64,000 nt of DNA. Source: an uncultured Veillonellaceae bacterium. GTDB taxonomy: Bacteria; Bacillota; Negativicutes; Veillonellales; Veillonellaceae. The position numbers and the translations under genes were made by a program. This document shows positions 37,585-51,050 of the stretch, in pieces. Location: NCBI GenBank assembly GCA_945867815.1, contig CAMBIX010000001.1:310001-374000 (forward strand), written 5' to 3'. Under the pieces are notes generated by a model. It saw only the letters and a list, made by a program, of their open reading frames with translations. It ran no database searches and was not told the origin of the DNA. Position 1 is the stretch's first letter. Every line of letters starts with the position of its first letter.

Positions 37585-40500
37585 TTATTTCCCCATCGGT
37601 ATAAATACTATATTAATTGCCTCAGGATTTTCCTCTTCATACTTTTCCCAAGTTTCTTTAATTTTCTTTAATCCATCGATTTTATTTATTTTTTCACTAT
37701 ATTCCTTACTATATTCATGTAATTCATTTTTTACTTTATCCAAAGCCTTTGCACCAATTGTTTCTGCACCGGCAGCACCAACAATACCTCCGAGCGTACC
37801 ACCAATTATAGCTCCTCTAGGACCTGCAGCTCGACCTATTTTCCATCCCATCTTAGCCCCTTTCGAAGCTGCACCAATAACACCTCTATACTTTCCATAC
37901 GCCGCTCCTTCTGCCAGTCCAAAAGTAACCGGTCCTTCATAATGCTTATAATTATCCACTGTATCATAGACTAAAGGAGTAACTTCAAATACTTTCTTAG
38001 CTACCATTGGTACCATAGTTTTTACTTTATCCGTCGCATAAGGAATCGTATTAACTACTTTTTCAACCCCTTTAACTTCTACCATCTCTTTTACATTGCT
38101 AATTACATTACTAGCAAATGAATTTTGCACTTCTTTTACTGGATTCTCTACCAATGCATTATTTTTCACTGTTACTGCTCTATTAGCACTATAGGCTACT
38201 CCATTATATAAAGTATAATGCACTGGATTATTATCCCATACTGCCTCATATACGGGATAACCATTGTCTGCTAAATAATCGCCAAATTCTCCCGACGAAT
38301 AAGCCGCCTCTTTCTCTGTATACTCCCATTTTCCATTATAAAGAACCATATGCTGCCCTGAGCCTGGCACAACAACAGCTTTATATCCTTCTGCCACTAA
38401 TTTATCTCCAAAATTTGCATAATTAACAGCACTTTTACCTGCAGTAATCTCAAAATTACGCCACATAGCCTGTCCTTGCTCTTCTACGCTCGTATTAAGT
38501 TCTGGATAATGATACTGTAAATAACTCATGCCCATTTGAGATTCATAATAATTAACGGCCATATCTAAACTAGATCTACTAATCCCTTTAGCTTGTGCAT
38601 AGCCATATAAAGCTTGTGCCAACGTACTACCAAAGAATCCTACTTGATTGCTTACTGATTGATTAGCATAATTAAAATAGCCATAAACGCTTCCTACCAG
38701 TGAACTATCCAGCCCATCATTAATTCCTAATTCATAAGCATATGGTGCTGTCTTGTTATTTAAAGCAATATAATATCCTAACTTTTGAGTTATTTCCCAC
38801 AAACCAATTCGACCTGCATCATAATCTGCGATTGACTTTCCTAATGCTAATTGGTCATAATGATTTAACCAATTAAACTCCGTAGCCTTTTCTGCTATCG
38901 CACTGCCAACATCTTTACCAGCGAGCTGTCCAATTAAGCCTGAAGCCAACTTCTTAAGTGTGCTATTCGGTAATTTATCAAGTGCTTTAGTCATGTATGC
39001 ATTAACTGCGCCTGCTGTTAGACCATCAGCAAAACCATTGCCACCATAAGCTGATACAAGGCCTCCAAGTAATCCGTGAAGAGCTACTTTATATTCACCA
39101 CCATCACTCCATTTTTTGGCTTCATCAAGGTACTGCTGTGCTTTTGCCTCATCTTTATTAGCCTTAGCTGCTATAGATTTAGCAATCAAGTCTTTTTGCT
39201 TGCTAACGGCTATATCACCAATTAGACCAAAGCCTTCTTTAGCCATAGCATTAGCCAAGGCTTGTTTTTCTTTTACATCTTTCAAATTGAAGATAGCGTC
39301 TAATTCGTTCAAGGCGTTAGCGGTGTCATGATTAATAGCTTCTAAGTCTTTCTTATCAGCCACTTCAATAATGCCATCCGCAATGGCTGAACGAGTTATA
39401 CTGCCAGCATTACCTGTAACGGGTATCGACTGCAAAGGATTAACTGGTAAAACAGAACTCTTATCATTAGTTACAGCTAGGCCTTTTTCCTTAGCTTTAT
39501 ACTTAGCAGTATTCGTTATATCGTTTAAGCTTAAAGATTTAGTTTTTAATCCGTTACTCTCTTTATCCGCCTGGCTAGCAATGACAGCGCCCATCAACGT
39601 TGTTTTATTCTTAGCCTCTACCTCATAACCAGCTTTACCAGCATAGATACCTGCTTGTTCTGTCACACTGGCATAGTTACTATCAATCTCCCCCTTACTA
39701 TAATTACCACCCAGTGTAGGAATTCCACTAGGAGTAAGAGATAGAGAAAAGCCTTTATTGGACGATGTATTCTTATATACATTCGTATCTTGCAAACTTT
39801 CTATAGTTAAATCACGGCTGGCCTTAACTGTTACCTTATCACCTACAACTTTTGAACCAACTATACCTGTATCTTGTCCAGATTGTAAGTTTACCGACTC
39901 TCTCCCATTAATAACAGAGCGTGTATGCGTAACAAGCTGCCCATTGCCATCTTCTTTATTGCTATAAGCACTTGTATTCACACCAGCCAAATTACCTTTA
40001 AAACCAAAAGATAGACCTACGGCAGAGCCACTACTAGAAGCCTTACTCCTTGTTTGTTCTGTATTAGTACCTGCTCGAACACTTAAATTATTAACCGCCT
40101 CTATATCTACTTTTTTACCAGCTATATTTTGTGCCGTTATTGCTATATTACCATCAATAGTAGCGGTCTTTTTCTGCTCTTTATCTACGCCACGAGCAAT
40201 AATGTGAACGGTTCCCTCTCGACTCGTAAGATTGCCTTGCACAACAGTCGATAACTCTTGTTCCGAAGACTGATTCACTTTAGAGGAGCCAAAGCTAAGA
40301 TTAATATTTATCATTTGATCACGCTTAGCTTGTTTATCCTGCTTGTAATTTTGAACCTTATCGCCAGCCTCTTTCGTATTTTGAGCTAACTGATCTAACT
40401 GTGCATTCGATACCATGCCTGGTGATAAATGCCCCGTTGCTAACAATCCTTGGGTACGTACCGATTGATTTATCATAGCCTTGGTGTTAGCTTGCAACTG

Positions 40501-43500
40501 AGATTTTAGGCCATCTAATGTATAATTGCTGAAACTATTAATCTGTTTATAGCCATCCCTAAGCGTCTTAACTCCCTGATAGTACTCATAGCCAGCCAAG
40601 ATTTTATTATTTATATCATTAGCACTACGAGCATACTGCCTTGCACTTGTAATAGCTGAAACTACAGAACCACCTAAGGAAGCTGTCAATCCTTTCGTAC
40701 TACGTTCATAGGTCTGCCCATAGTATTTCTGCGCCATAACTGCATCTAAGGTAACATTTTTACCATTAAGGGTAATATCCTGCTGGGCTTCAAGATTAGC
40801 ACTTGTAGCCTTTATATCGTCGCCAGTAGTTAGGTCTATTTTACCATGAACAGCCGTCACATTGGTACCTATTGGTTTCGTATACGACTGGGTATTAGTC
40901 GATTTTTCTTTCATCTTACCAATAGTAATCCCCATACCACTAGCAAAGAGCCCCGACTTCTTAGTCTGTTCCATGGCATAAGAAGAGCCAGATTCTGTCA
41001 TCGTGCCTAAGTCCATCTTACCGCTAGCTGTTACTGATACGTTCTTCTCAGCAGCTATATTACTAGCATCTACTTGAAGGTCTTTATTTGTGGCTATTGA
41101 TACACTTTCACCAGATACATTGCTACTTGTTACTGTATCTGATGTGGTCAAATAGGCCTTATCTGTCTGCGTTCTTGTAACAAGGCTTTTCTTTTTTGTC
41201 TGTGACCAGCCAGATTGTTCTAGATGATTAGTATCGCCTGTAATACTTGTATTGCCGTCGGCTTGAATACGTGTCTGCCCCGCTGAAGTTATATCAGTCG
41301 CTTGTAAGCTCGTATCTTGACCAGATATAAGACTGACATTCTTGCCAACAATTGTATTGCCTACCACATCTGACTCATGCCATTCATCATGGGTCTGTGT
41401 AGTCTGACTGTGACCACCACCAGATTTGCCTGTATGCTTATGGTCTTCTACAAGGTCGACTGTATTATGCCCTGTTGTTAACTTTATGCCATTACCCGCA
41501 GACAAGGTAAAGTCTTTATTAGAGCCTATGGTTACGGCTTTACCTTCTATATTATTGCCGGCAGTTAGTATCAAATTCCCATTACTAGTCAGATAGGAGC
41601 CTTCCTCATTAGTCCGCCATTCCGAGCGTTTATTAGCTCCTCGTCCAAGCACTTCTGAGGATGAAGTCTTAATACTATCTAGCTTAATGTCTTGATTAGC
41701 TGCAAGAGCTGTATCCCCTTCGGATTGATTAAAGATGGCTGATCCTGCGATGGTAATATTGCGACCTGCTTGCAAGACTAAATTAGCACCATTAGTACCA
41801 GCATTACCAACATTAGCCTTCTTATTTACCTCGACACTAGTACTTGTATAAGCCTCACTTTGATTAGATTTATCCGCATTGCCCTCTACATTAGCACTGT
41901 TAGACACACCCTCATTACCTGTATAACCCTTGCCTTTTTCACCTCGACCCGTTACTTTAACTTGACCTACCTTAGCTAGACTAGTTACCGTGCTCATCTC
42001 ATTACTATCTGACAAGGTCTTAGAAGCTATTATAATATCTCGTCTAGCCTGCAAGGTAACACTATCTGTACCTGCTATAGTCCCGCCTATATTACGAATA
42101 TCTTCCTTAGCATCGATAGCAACTTTATCTCCTGCAAGAGTGCCTTCATTAGCTACGTTATTAGCCGCTATGACTACCTCATTTTGTCCTAACATAGTCC
42201 CTTTATTAGTAACCGTATTAGCATTCATGATTTGTAAGTCATTAGCACTAATAAGGGCGACTCTAGGCTCTGTCTCATCGACCGCATTCGTTCCTGTCTT
42301 GCTGACCAAATATACCTGTGGCACTAAGGCTTCCACAATCTGACCTGATGGCAAGAGTACGGATACCTTCGTTAAGATAACCATATCTTTTGTAATCCCC
42401 TTTTGCTGGTCAGCTGTTAATGCATCCCCTAATACTACATTATGCTCATTAGCAAAACGGACACCTTCTTCCATCAAGTCCTTATATTCCTCTTCATCAC
42501 TCGTATAACCAGAAAGTTTACGCTTACCTGTCAGCTTCGTAATCTGCTCCATTACAATACCTAGTTCATAATAGCCATCGCCTAAGCGTTTCATGGTGTG
42601 TTTGGGGTCGGTCGCGATACGGTCTAAGTAATAATCTGAAGATAAGAATTTTTTCTTATTCGCATAGGCTGGATCTGTCTCAATAAAATACTGGCTATCT
42701 GGCGAGTTAGCTTCTTGATAAAGAGCAAATAAAGACAACCTACTAGCAATCGATGTAGTCTGCACCGTCCCATTCTCTGTTACTGTCTGTTGTATGGGCT
42801 GAAAGGCTGTTTCTGACTGAGGAACATCTTGACCCTCAGCTAGCTTTGTAGCTGGCACAATAATTTCTTTCGTTTGTATTACATGATACTTCCATCTATC
42901 ATCATTAGTAGAATCATGACCTCGCCTCTTATGACGAGAGTAATTATGGGCATCTCCCACATCTTCAATCGTGCGTATCCCTTTCGCCTCTATATTTTGT
43001 AAATCGGCTACCTCCGTTTTTAAGGTGCCACCAGCTAAAATCTGACTTTTGTCATTAATAAGCTGATTGCCGAAAATTCGCATATTTTTCCCAGCCAGTA
43101 TCTTCCCTGGATCTGTTTCCTTTACCTGGTCGTCTGTAATAATCCGGGTATAAAGAAAACGACTCCAATCTTCATAACTAGCCCCATAAATCTTTAAATG
43201 CACATTTTCAGCATAAAATCGGTCTACATGGTTACTCGGTATAGCTCCACCATTTCCATATATGTGGTCTGGCGTATTCAATACATATCGATTAGGATTA
43301 CCTGCATTTGTTACCTCATCATGCCACTCTCTAGCTACTTCCACTGGCTGCGTAGAAAAATGTAGGTTCTCATTCTTTATTTGTTCTACATCTAAGGTCA
43401 TATTGTCTTTGGCTTCAATGGTGGCACTACTATTAACTAAACTTTTAGCCTTAGGCTGTACCATTTCTACCTGCTCTTGTTCTACACCAGTAGTATTAGG

Positions 43501-45156
43501 AACAACTCCCTCTTTATTATTATTTGTACCTAAACTGTTCCCTTTATCTCTATTCTTCTTAGTTTTATTATCTGTATTAATATTTTTATTAGGTTCTTCC
43601 GATTTAGTATTTTCTACCGCACTATCCTTACTTCTTCCGCTAATAAATAAATCTTCATCAGACGACAAAACAGCATGCTCTGTATTCGTTACCCTTTCTG
43701 CTTCAATCGTCAGATTATCTCTAGCCTTAATAACAGGAGCACCTGGTTCCTGGTACTTACCCGTATTATTTAATTCTCTAGCAGATACATTGACTTGGTC
43801 CCCATAAATACGACCACCCGTCGTATTATCTAACTTATTTTTAACTTGAACGCTAGTCTTATTCCCATTGATAAGACCTTCATTATGTAGATTCTCCGCT
43901 TCAATCTTTGTCTCTAATCCTTCAATAGTACCACTTGTTGCATTATCTAATTTTCTAGCTTTGACACTAGTTGCATCAGCACTAATAGAGCCCTCATTAA
44001 TTAGGGAATTATTAACTTGCACTTTCATACCTTTCCCCTGTGCAAGAGCTGTATCGGTAAGCTTTATATCCTGTGCCTCTATATGAGCCTTATCTCCAGC
44101 ATACATAGTCCCCTTAACCTGCAGAGTACCATCTGCTAATAATTCTAAATCGCCCTTGCTAGCTGCCAACTTGCCATCAACATTAACGCCTAAGCCCTTA
44201 TCTGTGCCTACAAGGTAAATGCTGTCTGCATACATAGCACCCAACGAAGACACATCTAGCATTAGACCCTCTGTAACACTATTACTACTCTCGTCTTTAG
44301 AACGACTCGGACTGTCTGTTTTAGCAGTCTCACTTACACCTTCATTATGACTCTCTTTACTAGAATTATCTTCCCTATAACTACCATCATCACTAGTAGA
44401 CAAATTGGCAGCAGACCTAAAATCTTTATTTAAATGGGCATTTCCCTTATCTTCATCTACTGCCTTTACTTGACCTGTCCTGACATCAATATCATTACTA
44501 CCTACCGCACCTTTTATCTTATTAGCCCAAATGCCAGCATTCACCTTAGCCGCCTTTGTATATATCTCTAAGGCATCGGCTCCTTTAGCATTTAACCCTT
44601 GTCCTGTTACAAGAATCTGCCCACCATCTACACGGTAACCTTTAAGAGCACCATCCTCTATATTAGGCCGTCCCGTCGTAAGTGTAGCCCGTCCAGCATT
44701 AATAAAACCACCGCCATTGACGCTAATGCCATTAGGATTGGCAATAATAACGTCGGCCTTGTTACCGGCTACTTCAACATAACCTTGCATAGCTGTTCTA
44801 TTGCTGCCTGTTACTTCATTTAAAATGACATCCGCCTTAGTCCCTACCATCTGAAAATTGCCGTCTACATAACCAGCTAACTGTGTCTTACTCATTTTAC
44901 CAGAATTATTTAAGATAAGTCCTTTTTCGCCAACCTGTAAATTTGTATATTCATTATGCGATAGACCATGCCCATTGGGCCTGCGTATATCCACTAACGT
45001 CGTCCCATTGGCTGTCTCCCTTACCATAGGCGCCCGCCCATGATTGCCATCTGGCACGGCTACCGTATCCATGGCTAACCCTGCCATAGGATTGGCTATA
45101 AACAACCCCATCGTAATCCATGTTGCTACCTGTCTTGCTAGAACCTTTCCCTTCAT
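37585..45156 (-). CDS. cdiA: CdiA: two-partner-secreted contact-dependent toxin protein
   Basis: 2,523 residues. A signal peptide (about 1-28, ending AGLA) precedes the TPS secretion domain (to about 280; GLILNNSG, NEVTG, VIIANPNGI, GGGFINAG, TLTTG). Low-complexity Ser/Asn/Lys linkers lie near 240-320 and 520-580. FHA-type beta-helix repeats flank a central region (about 600-960; YLDRIATDPKHTMKRLGDGYYE) like the receptor-binding part of CdiA. More FHA repeats run to about 1880, then the pretoxin and PT-VENN-like domain ends at ATEFNWL (about 2096). The 427-residue toxin tip has a tandem GDxLxxxGY motif and a Gly/Ala-rich hydrophobic stretch (about 2427-2456). The start at 45156 has AAAGGA 6 bases upstream. 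Confidence 0.92.
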   Translation of the reverse strand: MKGKVLARQVATWITMGLFIANPMAGLAMDTVAVPDGNHGRAPMVRETANGTTLVDIRRPNGHGLSHNEYTNLQVGEKGLILNNSGKMSKTQLAGYVDGNFQMVGTKADVILNEVTGSNRTAMQGYVEVAGNKADVIIANPNGISVNGGGFINAGRATLTTGRPNIEDGALKGYRVDGGQILVTGQGLNAKGADALEIYTKAAKVNAGIWANKIKGAVGSNDIDVRTGQVKAVDEDKGNAHLNKDFRSAANLSTSDDGSYREDNSSKESHNEGVSETAKTDSPSRSKDESSNSVTEGLMLDVSSLGAMYADSIYLVGTDKGLGVNVDGKLAASKGDLELLADGTLQVKGTMYAGDKAHIEAQDIKLTDTALAQGKGMKVQVNNSLINEGSISADATSVKARKLDNATSGTIEGLETKIEAENLHNEGLINGNKTSVQVKNKLDNTTGGRIYGDQVNVSARELNNTGKYQEPGAPVIKARDNLTIEAERVTNTEHAVLSSDEDLFISGRSKDSAVENTKSEEPNKNINTDNKTKKNRDKGNSLGTNNNKEGVVPNTTGVEQEQVEMVQPKAKSLVNSSATIEAKDNMTLDVEQIKNENLHFSTQPVEVAREWHDEVTNAGNPNRYVLNTPDHIYGNGGAIPSNHVDRFYAENVHLKIYGASYEDWSRFLYTRIITDDQVKETDPGKILAGKNMRIFGNQLINDKSQILAGGTLKTEVADLQNIEAKGIRTIEDVGDAHNYSRHKRRGHDSTNDDRWKYHVIQTKEIIVPATKLAEGQDVPQSETAFQPIQQTVTENGTVQTTSIASRLSLFALYQEANSPDSQYFIETDPAYANKKKFLSSDYYLDRIATDPKHTMKRLGDGYYELGIVMEQITKLTGKRKLSGYTSDEEEYKDLMEEGVRFANEHNVVLGDALTADQQKGITKDMVILTKVSVLLPSGQIVEALVPQVYLVSKTGTNAVDETEPRVALISANDLQIMNANTVTNKGTMLGQNEVVIAANNVANEGTLAGDKVAIDAKEDIRNIGGTIAGTDSVTLQARRDIIIASKTLSDSNEMSTVTSLAKVGQVKVTGRGEKGKGYTGNEGVSNSANVEGNADKSNQSEAYTSTSVEVNKKANVGNAGTNGANLVLQAGRNITIAGSAIFNQSEGDTALAANQDIKLDSIKTSSSEVLGRGANKRSEWRTNEEGSYLTSNGNLILTAGNNIEGKAVTIGSNKDFTLSAGNGIKLTTGHNTVDLVEDHKHTGKSGGGHSQTTQTHDEWHESDVVGNTIVGKNVSLISGQDTSLQATDITSAGQTRIQADGNTSITGDTNHLEQSGWSQTKKKSLVTRTQTDKAYLTTSDTVTSSNVSGESVSIATNKDLQVDASNIAAEKNVSVTASGKMDLGTMTESGSSYAMEQTKKSGLFASGMGITIGKMKEKSTNTQSYTKPIGTNVTAVHGKIDLTTGDDIKATSANLEAQQDITLNGKNVTLDAVMAQKYYGQTYERSTKGLTASLGGSVVSAITSARQYARSANDINNKILAGYEYYQGVKTLRDGYKQINSFSNYTLDGLKSQLQANTKAMINQSVRTQGLLATGHLSPGMVSNAQLDQLAQNTKEAGDKVQNYKQDKQAKRDQMININLSFGSSKVNQSSEQELSTVVQGNLTSREGTVHIIARGVDKEQKKTATIDGNIAITAQNIAGKKVDIEAVNNLSVRAGTNTEQTRSKASSSGSAVGLSFGFKGNLAGVNTSAYSNKEDGNGQLVTHTRSVINGRESVNLQSGQDTGIVGSKVVGDKVTVKASRDLTIESLQDTNVYKNTSSNKGFSLSLTPSGIPTLGGNYSKGEIDSNYASVTEQAGIYAGKAGYEVEAKNKTTLMGAVIASQADKESNGLKTKSLSLNDITNTAKYKAKEKGLAVTNDKSSVLPVNPLQSIPVTGNAGSITRSAIADGIIEVADKKDLEAINHDTANALNELDAIFNLKDVKEKQALANAMAKEGFGLIGDIAVSKQKDLIAKSIAAKANKDEAKAQQYLDEAKKWSDGGEYKVALHGLLGGLVSAYGGNGFADGLTAGAVNAYMTKALDKLPNSTLKKLASGLIGQLAGKDVGSAIAEKATEFNWLNHYDQLALGKSIADYDAGRIGLWEITQKLGYYIALNNKTAPYAYELGINDGLDSSLVGSVYGYFNYANQSVSNQVGFFGSTLAQALYGYAQAKGISRSSLDMAVNYYESQMGMSYLQYHYPELNTSVEEQGQAMWRNFEITAGKSAVNYANFGDKLVAEGYKAVVVPGSGQHMVLYNGKWEYTEKEAAYSSGEFGDYLADNGYPVYEAVWDNNPVHYTLYNGVAYSANRAVTVKNNALVENPVKEVQNSFASNVISNVKEMVEVKGVEKVVNTIPYATDKVKTMVPMVAKKVFEVTPLVYDTVDNYKHYEGPVTFGLAEGAAYGKYRGVIGAASKGAKMGWKIGRAAGPRGAIIGGTLGGIVGAAGAETIGAKALDKVKNELHEYSKEYSEKINKIDGLKKIKETWEKYEEENPEAINIVFIPMGK
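38867..39592. repeat. Long direct repeat, copy within cdiA
   Basis: Partner of 33865-34590. It covers the codons for the last part of the stick, the pretoxin and the PT-VENN-like domain up to EFNWL; beyond that point the two toxins are unrelated. Homologous recombination across it would excise 5,002 bases and join cdiA in frame to toxin 2. Confidence 0.92.
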
Positions 45157-45261
45157 GTCGCTTCCTTTCTCTAAATCCATTTTTCCATCTCTCGTCTGTT
45201 CCGTATTAAAAACTATTTATCTCTACAACATTAAGCTCCTAATTACCAAACATCCTAAGCA

Positions 45262-45572
45262 CTATGTTACAAAGCACCTAATGTTTCTTTTGAATAACTT
45301 ATGAAGTACAGAGTTCCAAAAAATCATTACATACTTCCGTACTCTGAGTGCAACACAAACTTATCTGCCTCTATATTACGAAGCGCCTAATGTCTCTTAC
45401 GGATGACTTGCGAGCGCAGCGAAGGACGGAGTCCCGTAAGACCATTAGATGCTTCCATACTTTGCGATTAATCTAAACGCCTAGGCATTCTGTCACGAAG
45501 CAGTCAATGTTTCTCGCAGGCGACCTTCCGCTAGGACTGAGCCGAGAGAGCATTGACCGCTTCCGCACTCTG
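45262..45572. repeat. Array of three degenerate palindromic repeats between cdiB and cdiA
   Basis: Three units of about 85-90 bases lie at about 45262-45346, 45374-45463 and 45489-45572. Each begins near an AAGC or GAAGC element and ends near CTTCC(A/G)TACTTTG or CTTCCGTACTCTG, and each can fold on itself. In unit 2, CCTAATG pairs with CATTAG(a) and CTTACGG with CCGTAAG; in unit 3, GTCAATG pairs with CATTGAC. The arms differ between units but remain complementary, especially in units 2 and 3. Unit 1 is eroded. The surrounding gap, 45157-45606, has no gene. A role as an RNA stabiliser, attenuator or REP-like element is possible. Confidence 0.7.
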
Positions 45573-45606
45573 CCCTTAAATTTAGTACCCTAACACTCAA
45601 TTCCAT

Positions 45607-47376
45607 TTAATATGTAACAGATACCGAAAATCCAAAAGCTGTCTTACTCGCCTTAAACCCTTCCGGCTTATACACAGGCGTCCCTACAAATCCATCAATA
45701 TATAATCCATTCATAAGCTGACCCTTTACACCCACATAAGCACCGACAAGCATCGTACCCAATAAATCTTCTGTAGACGACCCCCACACGTGTCCTATAT
45801 CTAAACCCACATAAGGATAAAAACGCTTACCAAGAGTCGGAAACGTGACTTCATTACGCAAATAATAGCCACTTTCTCCTGTTAATGTATGGTCGCCACT
45901 AAAGCCTTTTACCGTATACCGTCCACCAAGACTCATTTGATCAGATAAGAACAAGGTATTCGGTGTGTACTGCCCTACAAAACGAAGTAAATACTGTCCT
46001 CGTTTCTGCCCAAAATCTAATGGTACAAGTAAAGTCCCTTGTAAACCAAACAGATGGTACATAGTTGTACCCGATCCATACTGCCCTTCCCACTCCTGTT
46101 GCTCGGCACCCAGCCAAGGTACGCCCTGCCTGTAGTAGGTATATAGGTCAAGTCTCTTCTCTCCAAAATACCGACGGTGTTTAATTCCAAGTTCTAAGAC
46201 AGTTGTATGCTGCCTCTGTACACCCACTTCTTCGCCGTCTAAATACGACCGTTTATCTTTCTTTATAAGATTAAAGGCAGCACTGGTCTTACTAACGGAA
46301 TCACGATATAAAAGCCGTTCTACCCCCAGGCTTATATTCTTTGTTTCTCCCTGCCAGATATAGGGCGTCCGTGCGGCTACCTGCTGATGATACTTGTAGC
46401 TCATCCAACCTAAGTTAAAGGTATAGTTTCCTAGAGGCATCCTATACGCAATTGACCTTGTATCCGTTCCATAAGCTGAACTTGTGTGCCTATGCGCTAA
46501 ATCTTTTGAATAAGATAGAGATAGACTATCTCCTATGCCTAGTGGATTATATACATTACCACTAATAGAACCTTCCAAGCGTCCTGTCGGTTCATAACCG
46601 CCATCGTCAATACTTAGGCTTATATCCCAGGGTTTAGTCCGCTTTACATCCAGTTCAATAATGCTAGTATCTGCCTTGGTACCTGGCAACAACTTAGCCT
46701 TAACCTCTTGATTAGGAAGCGCCCGCATCTGCTCTAACCCCTGTTCTAAAGAACGAAGGTTTAAAACGTCCCCTTTACGTATAGGAAAAGCCCTCTTCCA
46801 CGTACCATAACGATCTGTCTTATAGCGAATGTCTTCTATACGGCCAGCTACTACATGTAACCTTAAAGTACCGCTCGCCATATTCTGCTTAGGTACCTCT
46901 ACCCTAGACGTTACATAGCCAGCCTTCCATAAAGCTTTTGTTAACTCTTGCACAAGGTCATTTACCATAGTAGCTGTCATCCACGTTCCTTCATAAGGGG
47001 CCACTAACTTTCTCATATCCGGCAAGTAGCGACTATCTTTACTAATCTCAATTTTGCGCACGCAAATAGACCCAGCAGGTATAGACCGCACTCTTTGCAT
47101 TACATCAAGAGTTTTCCATCCTGCTGGGTTCTTTATCTTATCTATTTGATTGTCTCTGTTTATCTTATTAACGACAGCACTCGTATCTACGGTTGCTTTA
47201 TCTGAGTTAGCACTTTTAATAATGCTTTCATCATTTTTTTCTATAAACCTATTTTCAACAGTATCCGCTAGCACCTCATTCGTCACTAAACCTGACGTCA
47301 TCAGCAAAGCAAATGCATAAGCAGCTGACGCTATTAATAACCCGTTTCTCCCTCTTATTCCTATACCTTTATGCAT
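45607..47376 (-). CDS. cdiB: CdiB: outer-membrane two-partner-secretion exporter
   Basis: 589 residues. A signal peptide (1-38, ending EVLA) is followed by a linker helix region, POTRA domains (about 110-235) and a 16-strand-type barrel of the FhaC/ShlB family. The conserved L6 loop motif appears as YTVKGFSGD (VKGF instead of the usual VRGY/F), and the last residue is an aromatic Tyr after FSVSVT, as in outer-membrane barrels. It exports CdiA. I start at 47376, where AAGGA lies 7 bases upstream. The 450-base gap to cdiA contains the palindromic array; no strong terminator is obvious, so cdiBA may be co-transcribed. Confidence 0.92.
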   Translation of the reverse strand: MHKGIGIRGRNGLLIASAAYAFALLMTSGLVTNEVLADTVENRFIEKNDESIIKSANSDKATVDTSAVVNKINRDNQIDKIKNPAGWKTLDVMQRVRSIPAGSICVRKIEISKDSRYLPDMRKLVAPYEGTWMTATMVNDLVQELTKALWKAGYVTSRVEVPKQNMASGTLRLHVVAGRIEDIRYKTDRYGTWKRAFPIRKGDVLNLRSLEQGLEQMRALPNQEVKAKLLPGTKADTSIIELDVKRTKPWDISLSIDDGGYEPTGRLEGSISGNVYNPLGIGDSLSLSYSKDLAHRHTSSAYGTDTRSIAYRMPLGNYTFNLGWMSYKYHQQVAARTPYIWQGETKNISLGVERLLYRDSVSKTSAAFNLIKKDKRSYLDGEEVGVQRQHTTVLELGIKHRRYFGEKRLDLYTYYRQGVPWLGAEQQEWEGQYGSGTTMYHLFGLQGTLLVPLDFGQKRGQYLLRFVGQYTPNTLFLSDQMSLGGRYTVKGFSGDHTLTGESGYYLRNEVTFPTLGKRFYPYVGLDIGHVWGSSTEDLLGTMLVGAYVGVKGQLMNGLYIDGFVGTPVYKPEGFKASKTAFGFSVSVTY

Positions 47377-47445
47377 TCTCGCTTCCTTTTCATCCATCAA
47401 AAATATTACTAGTCACTATCACAAAACATAAATATATTTTTGTCC

Positions 47446-47555: not shown

Positions 47556-47632
47556 ACTATTCCTATCCTGTCATAATGTTAACTATAAAAGCTCATTAAC
47601 TAATAACAATACTATTGACAGGAGTCTTTATC

Positions 47633-48643
47633 ATGAAAGTAACATCTATCGACAAATTAACACAAGACATACTCGCTGGCTATCGCATCAAACGTGGTGA
47701 TGACCTTTCCTATTTATTAACAGCACCTCTAGACCAATTACAAGAAGGCGCAGGCCGCCTACAGAAACACTTCTGCGGTAATCATATTGATTTCTGTACT
47801 ATTATTAATGGCCGCAGCGGTCGTTGTGGTGAAAACTGTAAATACTGTGCCCAAGCAGCCTGCCACCATACAGGTGTCGATGAATATCCTTTCTTACCTA
47901 AAGAAGAAATCATAAAGAACGCCAAAGCCAACCAAGAAGCTGGTGCCAATCGCTTTGCCATTGTCACCTCTGGCCGTGCCTTAACTGGCGAAGATTTTAA
48001 CAAGGCTATCGATACTTATAAGCAAATGAAAAAAGATTTAACCATCGATTTATGTGCCTCCCATGGCCTACTTAATCGAGACCAATTCAAGAGATTACGG
48101 GCTGCTGGCGTTACCAGTTACCATCATAATATTGAAACGTCACGCCGTTTTTTCCCTCAAATCTGTACCTCTCACACCTATGAAGACCGTATAAAAACCA
48201 TCAAAATCGCACAAGAAGAAGGGTTCTGTGTCTGCTCTGGTGGCATTATCGGCATGGGGGAAACTTGGGAAGACCGTATAGACATGGCTCTTTCCCTTGC
48301 CGAATTAGGTATTGAATCCATTCCAGTCAATGCATTAATGGCCATTCCTGGCACTGGTATGGAAGGACGGCCACAAATTCCTGCAGACGATGTGTTACGT
48401 ACTATTGCTATTTTCCGCTTCATTAACCCAGCAGCCAATATTCGCTTAGCCGCTGGCCGTAAAATTTTACCTAAAAACGGAGCTACGGCCCTAACAGCTG
48501 GTGCCTCTGCCTCCATTACAGGTAATATGTTAACTACCTCTGGCACCACTATTAAAGAAGATATGGTTATGCTTGAAGAACTAGGTCTTACCAATAAAGA
48601 CGAAGACTGCTTAGCTTCTACTGGTACTTGTGGTGCTAGATAA
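47633..48643 (+). CDS. bioB: Biotin synthase
   Basis: 336 residues. Radical-SAM enzyme inserting sulfur into dethiobiotin. GRCGENCKYCAQA carries the CxxxCxxC cluster ligands, then AIVTSGRAL, YHHNIETS, CSGGIIGMGE and NALMAIPGTGMEG. The start is the ATG at 47633, with AGGAG 8 bases upstream. It stands alone here: no other biotin gene is in the window. The upstream BirA-type operator indicates biotin repression. Confidence 0.96.
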   Translation: MKVTSIDKLTQDILAGYRIKRGDDLSYLLTAPLDQLQEGAGRLQKHFCGNHIDFCTIINGRSGRCGENCKYCAQAACHHTGVDEYPFLPKEEIIKNAKANQEAGANRFAIVTSGRALTGEDFNKAIDTYKQMKKDLTIDLCASHGLLNRDQFKRLRAAGVTSYHHNIETSRRFFPQICTSHTYEDRIKTIKIAQEEGFCVCSGGIIGMGETWEDRIDMALSLAELGIESIPVNALMAIPGTGMEGRPQIPADDVLRTIAIFRFINPAANIRLAAGRKILPKNGATALTAGASASITGNMLTTSGTTIKEDMVMLEELGLTNKDEDCLASTGTCGAR

Positions 48644-48896: not shown

Positions 48897-51050
48897 TTAA
48901 TAAGCCCAACCTAAGGCTTTTCGTTTTTCATTAATATCATCAATAATCTTTTTAGCCACAATCTTCGGGTCAGGATCAACAAACATAACAGAACCTAACA
49001 AGTCTTGAGTACCTTCTTTAATGAACTTCATAACATTGTCAGACCCTTGAATGTTCATTTCAACACAGTGATAAGAGCTAATACCTAACAAGCGATGCGC
49101 CAAAGCTGCATCAACGCCCTTTTCATTAGCCCATTCTGGACTCGACATAGCAAATGGCATATCCGGCAAATCATGACCGCAAGCACCAGCAACAGCACCA
49201 AAGATAGCACTAGACCGCGCATTATCTATACATTCTCCAACATGCCATACAGGTGGCATATCATCATTACCTAAGAATTCTTTTAAACCAGGCCCACAAT
49301 GCTTATCTACTGCTTCTGTCGTACAATAGCCTAATTTCAATAACGGGAAGGACGCACACCCATTAGTTGTTACAATAATATCATTTTTTAATAGTTCATC
49401 AACAATATCTACCGTAGCTCGTTCGAAAACAACCTTCGGATTAGTACAACCAACCACATTAACAATACCACGAATTTTACCACTCTTTAAAGCATCAGCA
49501 ATAGGCTGGGCAGATCCATAGTGTTCCTGCAAATATTGAATGGAGAAACCGACTTCAGCTGTACATTCATAAGGCGGAATAAAAACTGGCAAATCCTTAC
49601 GTGCTGCATGCGTTTCAATAGCTCGCTCTACAATTTTACGAGCAATCTTCTTAGTCTCTCCAATATTGGAATGATGATGGTCATAGCCATAGTGTTCAGC
49701 TCCTGGCAAACGACAAGAGTCACTCGTCGTAACAACCGTTACCTGATTACACCGGGCTACATCCATAATAGCAGGATATACATCTTGTACATCGGCCATC
49801 CACAAGTCAAGTGCACCAGTAGCCAAGACTAGTTCAGCACCAATCGCATTACTTAGTGGGATAACCCCTTCATAGCGATACATTTGAGCCAGTCCTGAAC
49901 AGCAAATACCATAAAACTGAATGCCTTTAGCACCAGCAGCTTTAGCCTTTTCCTGCATTTCTGGTGTGCACGCCATTTCAATAACAGCTGTAACGATGGT
50001 TGGCAAATGGCCATGAACGGCAATGTTAACATAGTCTTTCTTCAAGGCACCTACATTAACTTTGGATGTACGACGTGTACCTCGTCCAAACAAGGCATCT
50101 GTTGCAATATTAACAGCGACAACCCCTGTAAAAGTAAAAGCCAGACCACAGCGTAAAAACTGTTTCATATTACTCATCCAGTCACCATCAGTTCCCACAC
50201 AGGTTCGATGATAGGCATCAAAGACTTCATTATAGGCACTAATTGGTAAAATATCTAAATCCGCCCATACCTTGCGACGTTCTTCTGGAGCTAAGTACTT
50301 AATAGCCTTATACTCTTCTGGCATAGCCCGCGATAAATCATCTAATAAGACGTCAGCCACTTCTTCAGCTAATTGGTTAATAGTCTTTCCTTCCTGTGGA
50401 ATTTCAAAAGCTGCTGCGGTCTGCCGAATACATTCTTCCCCTAAGATTGGCTGATCCAATTTACCTTGAGCTGCATATTTTAAGGATAAAAGAACTTCCC
50501 GTGCATGAGCTCCATGCTGTGCTACACCACCAGCTGCCTGTCGCACTAAATTACGAGCGACAATTAAATCTGCATCAGCTCCACAAATACCACGTGGACT
50601 CTTAGGCGTTACCTTACAAGGCCCCATATTACAAATACGGCAGCATACACCGCCTAGACCAAAGGTGCACTGTGGCTGTTGGGCATCGAAACGATCAAAT
50701 ACATTATCACAACCGATTTGTTCCATCCGTAAAATCAAATCACGCACAGCTGGATCTGGTGTTTCTTCTAAAACTCGCTGCTTAGACGGAAAGGTCTTAC
50801 GATATTCAGCAACCGCCTTCATATAGTCATTTACTCCAGGATGACCATGAGTATAGCGAGGGTCATGTACATGGCCTGACCACTTATCATGGCTGGCAGC
50901 TAATTCTGTATCGGGTGCAGATAAGACCGGTTGGTCTGCCTTGTCACCTCGTTCAAAATAAATCGTATGATCATCATGCTCATGTGTGTGTATATGCGTA
51001 TGCTCATGATTCTGTTCATGCGTATGGTTGTGTTCGTGTTCTTTACTCAT
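48897..51050 (-). CDS. cooS: Anaerobic Ni-dependent carbon monoxide dehydrogenase with His-rich leader
   Basis: 717 residues. Interconverts CO and CO2 at a Ni-Fe-S C-cluster. FGLGGVCCRICNMGPCKV holds the B/D-cluster cysteines; C-cluster ligands are in HGHLPT, YGICCSG, VVGCTNPK, NGCASFP and HVGECIDNAR. The first 28 residues are a His/Glu run (about ten His), followed by more His near 53-70, not part of the normal enzyme; it resembles nickel-binding tails of HypB or CooJ. No acetyl-CoA synthase or CooC gene is nearby, so it stands alone. AGAGGA precedes the ATG; terminators lie on both sides. Confidence 0.95.
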   Translation of the reverse strand: MSKEHEHNHTHEQNHEHTHIHTHEHDDHTIYFERGDKADQPVLSAPDTELAASHDKWSGHVHDPRYTHGHPGVNDYMKAVAEYRKTFPSKQRVLEETPDPAVRDLILRMEQIGCDNVFDRFDAQQPQCTFGLGGVCCRICNMGPCKVTPKSPRGICGADADLIVARNLVRQAAGGVAQHGAHAREVLLSLKYAAQGKLDQPILGEECIRQTAAAFEIPQEGKTINQLAEEVADVLLDDLSRAMPEEYKAIKYLAPEERRKVWADLDILPISAYNEVFDAYHRTCVGTDGDWMSNMKQFLRCGLAFTFTGVVAVNIATDALFGRGTRRTSKVNVGALKKDYVNIAVHGHLPTIVTAVIEMACTPEMQEKAKAAGAKGIQFYGICCSGLAQMYRYEGVIPLSNAIGAELVLATGALDLWMADVQDVYPAIMDVARCNQVTVVTTSDSCRLPGAEHYGYDHHHSNIGETKKIARKIVERAIETHAARKDLPVFIPPYECTAEVGFSIQYLQEHYGSAQPIADALKSGKIRGIVNVVGCTNPKVVFERATVDIVDELLKNDIIVTTNGCASFPLLKLGYCTTEAVDKHCGPGLKEFLGNDDMPPVWHVGECIDNARSSAIFGAVAGACGHDLPDMPFAMSSPEWANEKGVDAALAHRLLGISSYHCVEMNIQGSDNVMKFIKEGTQDLLGSVMFVDPDPKIVAKKIIDDINEKRKALGWAY

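Follow-up and report, generated by a model that had tools for sequence, protein, structure and literature searches.

A CO-dehydrogenase-like gene of an uncultured Veillonellaceae bacterium, a gut/oral-type anaerobe, begins with a histidine-rich stretch, which raises the question of whether such an extension could take the place of the nickel chaperone CooC. The window, by which we mean the whole stretch of 64,000 nucleotides that was analysed, contains this cooS-like gene of the CODH clade B type at 48897..51050 (minus strand, 717 aa), and with its own protein as query (E<=0.001) it is the sole CooS match in its genome. Its ATG start is preceded by GAGAGAGGACATACCT, a good ribosome site. Residues 1-28 (MSKEHEHNHTHEQNHEHTHIHTHEHDDH; 50967..51050, minus strand; pLDDT about 30-36) form a variable tract of 11 His and 5 Glu, and 16 His lie in the first 70 residues (those beyond residue 28 at 54, 60, 62, 68 and 70), which bears out the His/Glu-rich start described in the initial annotation. 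The full extension of 96 residues contains 16 His and 10 HxH. When all 28-residue stretches of the window's 47 non-overlapping ORFs (100 aa or longer) are compared, the second-richest holds 5 His. Given a His frequency of 1.97% in the window, 11 His in 28 residues have a probability of about 3e-12 per stretch, with about 19,000 stretches. Because the His codons are mixed (13 CAT and 3 CAC, the same as in the remainder of the gene) and tandem repeats in the tail DNA are weak (24 bp, 2.1 copies), we ruled out a simple DNA repeat as the source of the tail. An artefact or a wrong start is ruled out by the good ribosome site, the mixed His codons and the tails of the relatives.

In the AlphaFold model (35 sequences as input, overall pLDDT 81.5), residues 1-73 are disordered (pLDDT <50) and precede a core with the normal CODH fold, for which 6t7j is the best match among solved CODHs (TM 0.83, query length). 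Alignment with 12 Veillonella-type relatives divides the extension into two parts, an indel-rich variable His tract and a proximal block of ordered HxH pairs that is placed before DYMKAVAEYRKT, the start of the core. This proximal block (residues 54-83, 50802..50891, minus strand), of the form WxxHxHxxxxxHxHxxVNDYMKAVAEY with His60/62/68/70, is common to the 12 relatives. Of 71 N-tailed members, 42 have two HxH pairs at most 34 residues from the core block. Most N-tailed members without these pairs, many of them Lachnospiraceae/Ruminococcus, show a different block at this place, HSHR..IGFD..GIP; in L012, L030, L159 and other Lachnospiraceae/Ruminococcus, a conserved module HSHRxLIGFDxHGIPTxxxKxDH at residues about 20-70 separates the His tract from the core. 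No known domain was found in the extension in Pfam, the best PDB match was no better than E 0.41, and the extensions of L030 and L041 had no Pfam match below E 0.16.

The rest of the protein matches TIGR01702, the model for the catalytic subunit of anaerobic CODHs, with 516 bits over residues 99-714 (cut-off 478), and Pfam Prismane. Column counts locate the D-/B-cluster Cys128, 136, 137, 140, 145 and 156 (codon span 50583..50669, minus strand), so that both D-cluster Cys (128, 136) are present. The C-cluster ligands His346, Cys384, Cys535, Cys565 and Cys607 are retained, as are the columns of the acid-base residues His179 and Lys644, whose correspondence to CODH-II numbers was assigned from the alignment. 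At the position of the second C-cluster Cys, column counts and pairwise alignment place Asp423 (codon 49782..49784, minus strand). We take this position to be Cys333 of Carboxydothermus hydrogenoformans CODH-II. With Asp423 at this site, which the initial annotation did not consider, the protein is a putative Ni-CO dehydrogenase, and both nickel at this Asp-type site and activity with CO would be predictions.

The tail is a real feature that has already been described in print. The consulted sections of Inoue et al. 2019 (PMC6344411) characterise group B-1 of Ni-CODH clade B by an N-terminal His-rich region together with Asp/Glu for the second C-cluster Cys, and note ABC transporters with this group. 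The window protein has the N-terminal His-rich region (4-48 His with HxH repeats in the published group) and Asp/Glu at the second C-cluster Cys with the remaining C-cluster ligands kept, by which we assign it to group B-1. In the published group the D-cluster is of type II. The window protein further resembles that group in its other cluster residues, in the acid-base His and Lys and in having a NitT/TauT ABC transporter as partner (PMC6344411, consulted sections); however, its cooS stands alone in the window, and the full importer set is not adjacent but elsewhere in the genome, on contig C5. Groups B-2 and B-3 share the Asp at the second C-cluster site, and B-3 has a C-terminal His tail, but both lack an N-terminal tail, and in most tail-less members that we surveyed CooC adjoins cooS. 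CooS-V and group D-1 are characterised by Glu in place of the first C-cluster Cys (Cys295); the window protein lacks this change and keeps Cys384. The statement in the initial annotation that the extension is not part of the usual CooS thus applies to CODHs generally but not to its own clade, in which nearly every member is tailed.

To survey the clade, we combined a scan of genome contigs (64 loci) with searches of the same family (28 genomes, 17 with a match), the phylum (398 genomes, of which 12 matched at E<=1e-150), the order of G073 (9 genomes, 3 with a match) and the phylum of G466, Pseudomonadota (398 genomes). As only 1 genome matched in the latter, we also searched the order of G466 (195 genomes, 6 with a match). 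Plasmid records added one tailed member, from Ruminococcus albus. Seven of the 64 contig-scan loci were dropped: four are frame-split (L048, L055, L056, L062), with tails visible in another frame, two are partial (L060, L064) and one is distant (L063, 30%). From the same-family search, 1 duplicate and 5 fragments were removed, and from the phylum search, duplicates and broken copies. For L020, L051 and L054, we chose the start manually, at a site 5' of the scripted one. The final set comprises 83 clade-B-like CooS including the window's, free of duplicates, fragments and broken copies, and these form one fully supported group against 5 other CODHs in a tree without a named clade reference. Read by pattern, their second C-cluster site is Asp in 72, Glu in 8 and unmatched in 3; as no Cys was seen, Inoue's group B-4, in which this Cys is kept, is unrepresented in the sample.

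The survey of CooS N-termini that the initial annotation had called for revealed an N-terminal tail in 73 of the 83 proteins; three have a C-terminal tail (L149-L151) and seven have none (L050, L052, L053, L091, L092, L148, L152). Clade B CooS with a tail were found in Veillonella and Selenomonas as well as in many Lachnospiraceae and Ruminococcus. The number of His per N-tail ranges from 4 to 49 with a median of 12 (70 N-tails with scripted starts). Tails that vary this widely in length and His number are like passive stores, and as the sequence specifies no metal, the tail might be a general buffer, sensor or detoxification device for Zn, Cu or Ni that was fused to CooS by chance and leaves the active site unfed. 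Such a free buffer need not track CooC, whereas the tails stay on CooS, at either end, and coincide with the absence of CooC, so that we consider a general buffer quite improbable.

To compare tails with CooC, we counted CooC at E<1e-15 over >200 residues, which leaves aside the short matches of P-loop type at E 1e-5 to 1e-9. The window's own genome yielded no CooC match at E<=1e-5, neither beside cooS nor elsewhere, and the earlier remark that no CooC is nearby can thus be extended to the genome. Full-length CooC was found neither there nor in any of the 28 family genomes, which gave two short matches near 1e-6. Among the tail-less clade B genes, CooC directly adjoins cooS in six of seven (L052, L053, L091, L092, L148, L152) and is present in the genome in all seven, with the CooC of L050 located elsewhere, near another CODH. 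In L091 and L092, a CooC-type ATPase directly precedes the tail-less cooS; the best PDB match of the L092 neighbour is CooC 3kje (E 3e-37; next 1e-13). Conversely, CooC lies beside cooS in none of the 76 N- or C-tailed members, although at 8 of 82 loci one of the two flanks is shorter than 1.5 kb, so that adjacency is incompletely visible there. At the genome level, CooC occurs in 4 of 74 tailed genomes searched (G445, G453, G459, G417; L043 and L159 were excluded from this count, and G453 and G090, with identical coordinates, were counted once). In all four, a CooC is near another CODH that shares only 32-35% identity with that of the window; a second CooC region in G459 has no CooS match in the fetched stretch. 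Four loci outside these counts or at their edge should be read with them: L051 and L054 (Verrucomicrobia) have 5-6 His, an uncertain start and no CooC, and would break the rule if scored as tail-less; L064, an 87-aa tail-less fragment, comes from a genome without CooC; and L060, a tailed gene truncated at a contig end, has a CooC-like match elsewhere in its genome (29%, E 2.6e-20).

Tails are thus found where CooC is missing and are absent where CooC is next door, which suggests that the tail may replace the helper. Fisher's exact test of tail against CooC gives 1.9e-8 for adjacent genes and 9.5e-8 for genomes when kinship is ignored. On a tree inferred by a quick method, with an unresolved base, we observed two changes of tail state and 1 (starred) to 2 independent contrasts, each of which either points the expected way or shows no difference. 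With only 1-2 independent contrasts, the association loses its significance when relatedness is taken into account. This small number would also fit unrelated lineage traits with no functional exchange, CooC belonging to a branch that arose early and the tail to one that arose later. The N-terminal tails are distinct from the C-terminal ones, yet both accompany the absence of CooC, and both states are found within the same order: in Chromatiales, the C-tailed L149-L151 come from genomes without CooC and the tail-less L052, L053 and L148 all have it. We therefore regard unrelated traits as unlikely. The wider distribution fits the replacement of a chaperone by the tail, as the initial annotation had proposed for this protein, and favours it, though without deciding the matter.

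If the tail does collect a metal, an importer could supply it. An NMT1/NitT-type binding protein is encoded within the fetched stretch at 51 of 83 loci; none was found near the window's cooS. The ortholog in the window's own genome (62% identity) is on contig C5 with a permease and an ATPase, unlinked to cooS. This locus (L172:6255-8861) is a complete clade-B-type ABC importer; the two genes beside it are, we assume, chromate-transporter-like. In the Veillonellaceae, the binding protein (E<1e-100) is present in 13 of 17 CooS-positive vs 0 of 11 CooS-negative genomes. The four CooS-positive genomes without it comprise two with a broken cooS (G025, G026), one with a fragment (G007) and one with an intact gene (G024). 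A tailed CooS with no strong importer match occurs in G024 and, outside the family, in G094 and G297. The closest structure to the binding protein is 3un6 (E 4.6e-60), which is described as metal-binding in the consulted sections of Inoue et al. 2019 (PMC6344411), and this likeness would also suit a tail that buffers metals in general. Our literature search on the metal specificity of 3un6-type binding proteins gave no answer. Eight importer binding proteins have in common an invariant Cys-Cys pair and one invariant His, which, judged by sequence, would suit metal binding.

Our best reading, which we hold to be evenly poised between right and wrong, is that the extension is a disordered in-cis nickel store on clade-B CooS that makes CooC dispensable. 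Ni2+ would enter through the dedicated NMT1/NitT-type ABC importer, the HxH-rich tail would hold it in a CooJ-like manner, and nickel would pass from the tail to the C-cluster of the same dimer; as a result of the tail, the ATPase chaperone CooC could be dispensed with. CooJ binds four Ni through its His-rich domain (PMC6006190, consulted part). By composition, the window tail is HxH-rich like the CooJ and HypB extensions, but these belong to separate accessory proteins whereas the tail is part of the enzyme. A nearby form of the chaperone-replacement idea has already been published: in the consulted sections of Inoue et al. 2019 (PMC6344411), the tails are likened to CooJ and HypB, and it is hypothesised that they bind and insert imported Ni. 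These sections contain no comparison of tails with the presence of CooC, and it is this exchange of tail and CooC across relatives that our analysis adds. A search by title and abstract start, with most subscription journals outside its scope, found no publication joining the tail with CooC, although such a link may well have appeared in print outside that scope.

The main competing explanation concerns the active site. According to the consulted part of an eLife 2026 study of CODH contexts (PMC13056359), maturases are nearly absent from clade B operons outside one small cluster that branches early, their loss through re-purposing is suggested, and no CODH of clade B has yet been characterised biochemically; the term 'His-rich' does not occur in its main text. 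The Asp site of a re-purposed enzyme would, as in CooS-V, carry an Fe-S or Fe-S-O cluster instead of Ni, CooC would have been lost as no Ni is inserted, and the tail would serve otherwise. Asp/Glu in all 80 pattern-read sites of the 83 sequences fits this, as does CooS-V of C. hydrogenoformans (7b7q), which, in the consulted part of PMC9311411, has Cys295 replaced by Glu, a hybrid cluster and no CO activity. The window protein shares with CooS-V the CODH fold and the change of one C-cluster Cys to an acidic residue; however, it keeps the Cys at the CooS-V position (Cys384), its altered ligand is the next one, Asp423, and the catalytic His and Lys columns are kept. Furthermore, the six tail-less genes beside CooC also have Asp at the second C-cluster Cys. 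The Asp site thus goes with the nickel-insertion machinery and can be argued to still receive metal, which makes re-purposing rather doubtful in our view. That CooC was replaced by an enzyme-fused His-rich nickel tail at least twice, at the N- and at the C-terminus, together with an Asp-ligated C-cluster, is a tentative proposal to which we give somewhat less than an even chance. Besides the few independent contrasts, the loci L051, L054, L060 and L064 and the three genomes with a tailed CooS but no strong importer match, it also counts against the nickel-store reading that some CODHs, among them C. hydrogenoformans CODH-II, mature without CooC (PMC6006190, PMC13056359, consulted parts).

The exchange of tail and CooC turns a published guess into a testable question, namely whether the work of an ATPase chaperone can be taken over by a few dozen histidines on the enzyme itself. 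It bears on whether an Asp-ligated C-cluster still accepts nickel, and it separates two published readings, a self-loading nickel enzyme (2019) and a re-purposed enzyme without a maturase (2026). Putative CODHs are reported from 323 of 443 Veillonella and 7 of 12 F0422 gut genomes in the consulted part of Katayama et al. 2024 (PMC11338639).

Lastly, we note some observations on the gene and its surroundings. An Rfam scan of the window gave no match, hence no riboswitch was found near cooS, and a promoter/terminator scan of the gap upstream of cooS gave nothing exceeding shuffles and nothing on the strand of the gene. In Ruminococcus albus 7, the tailed cooS and the ABC importer (L159) are located on the 353-kb plasmid pRUMAL02, which is typed as conjugative. 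Three Veillonellaceae have a broken cooS, by a frame split, an internal deletion and as a fragment (L096 in G026, L097 in G025 and L080 in G007, respectively). Near cooS, both in the window (47615-48643) and in a Veillonella-type genome (L098:9053-10207), is a gene that, named by its motif, we take to be a biotin-synthase-like radical SAM gene. The region 37585-47400 of the window presumably encodes a filamentous haemagglutinin-like protein of 2531 aa and its two-partner secretion outer-membrane partner.
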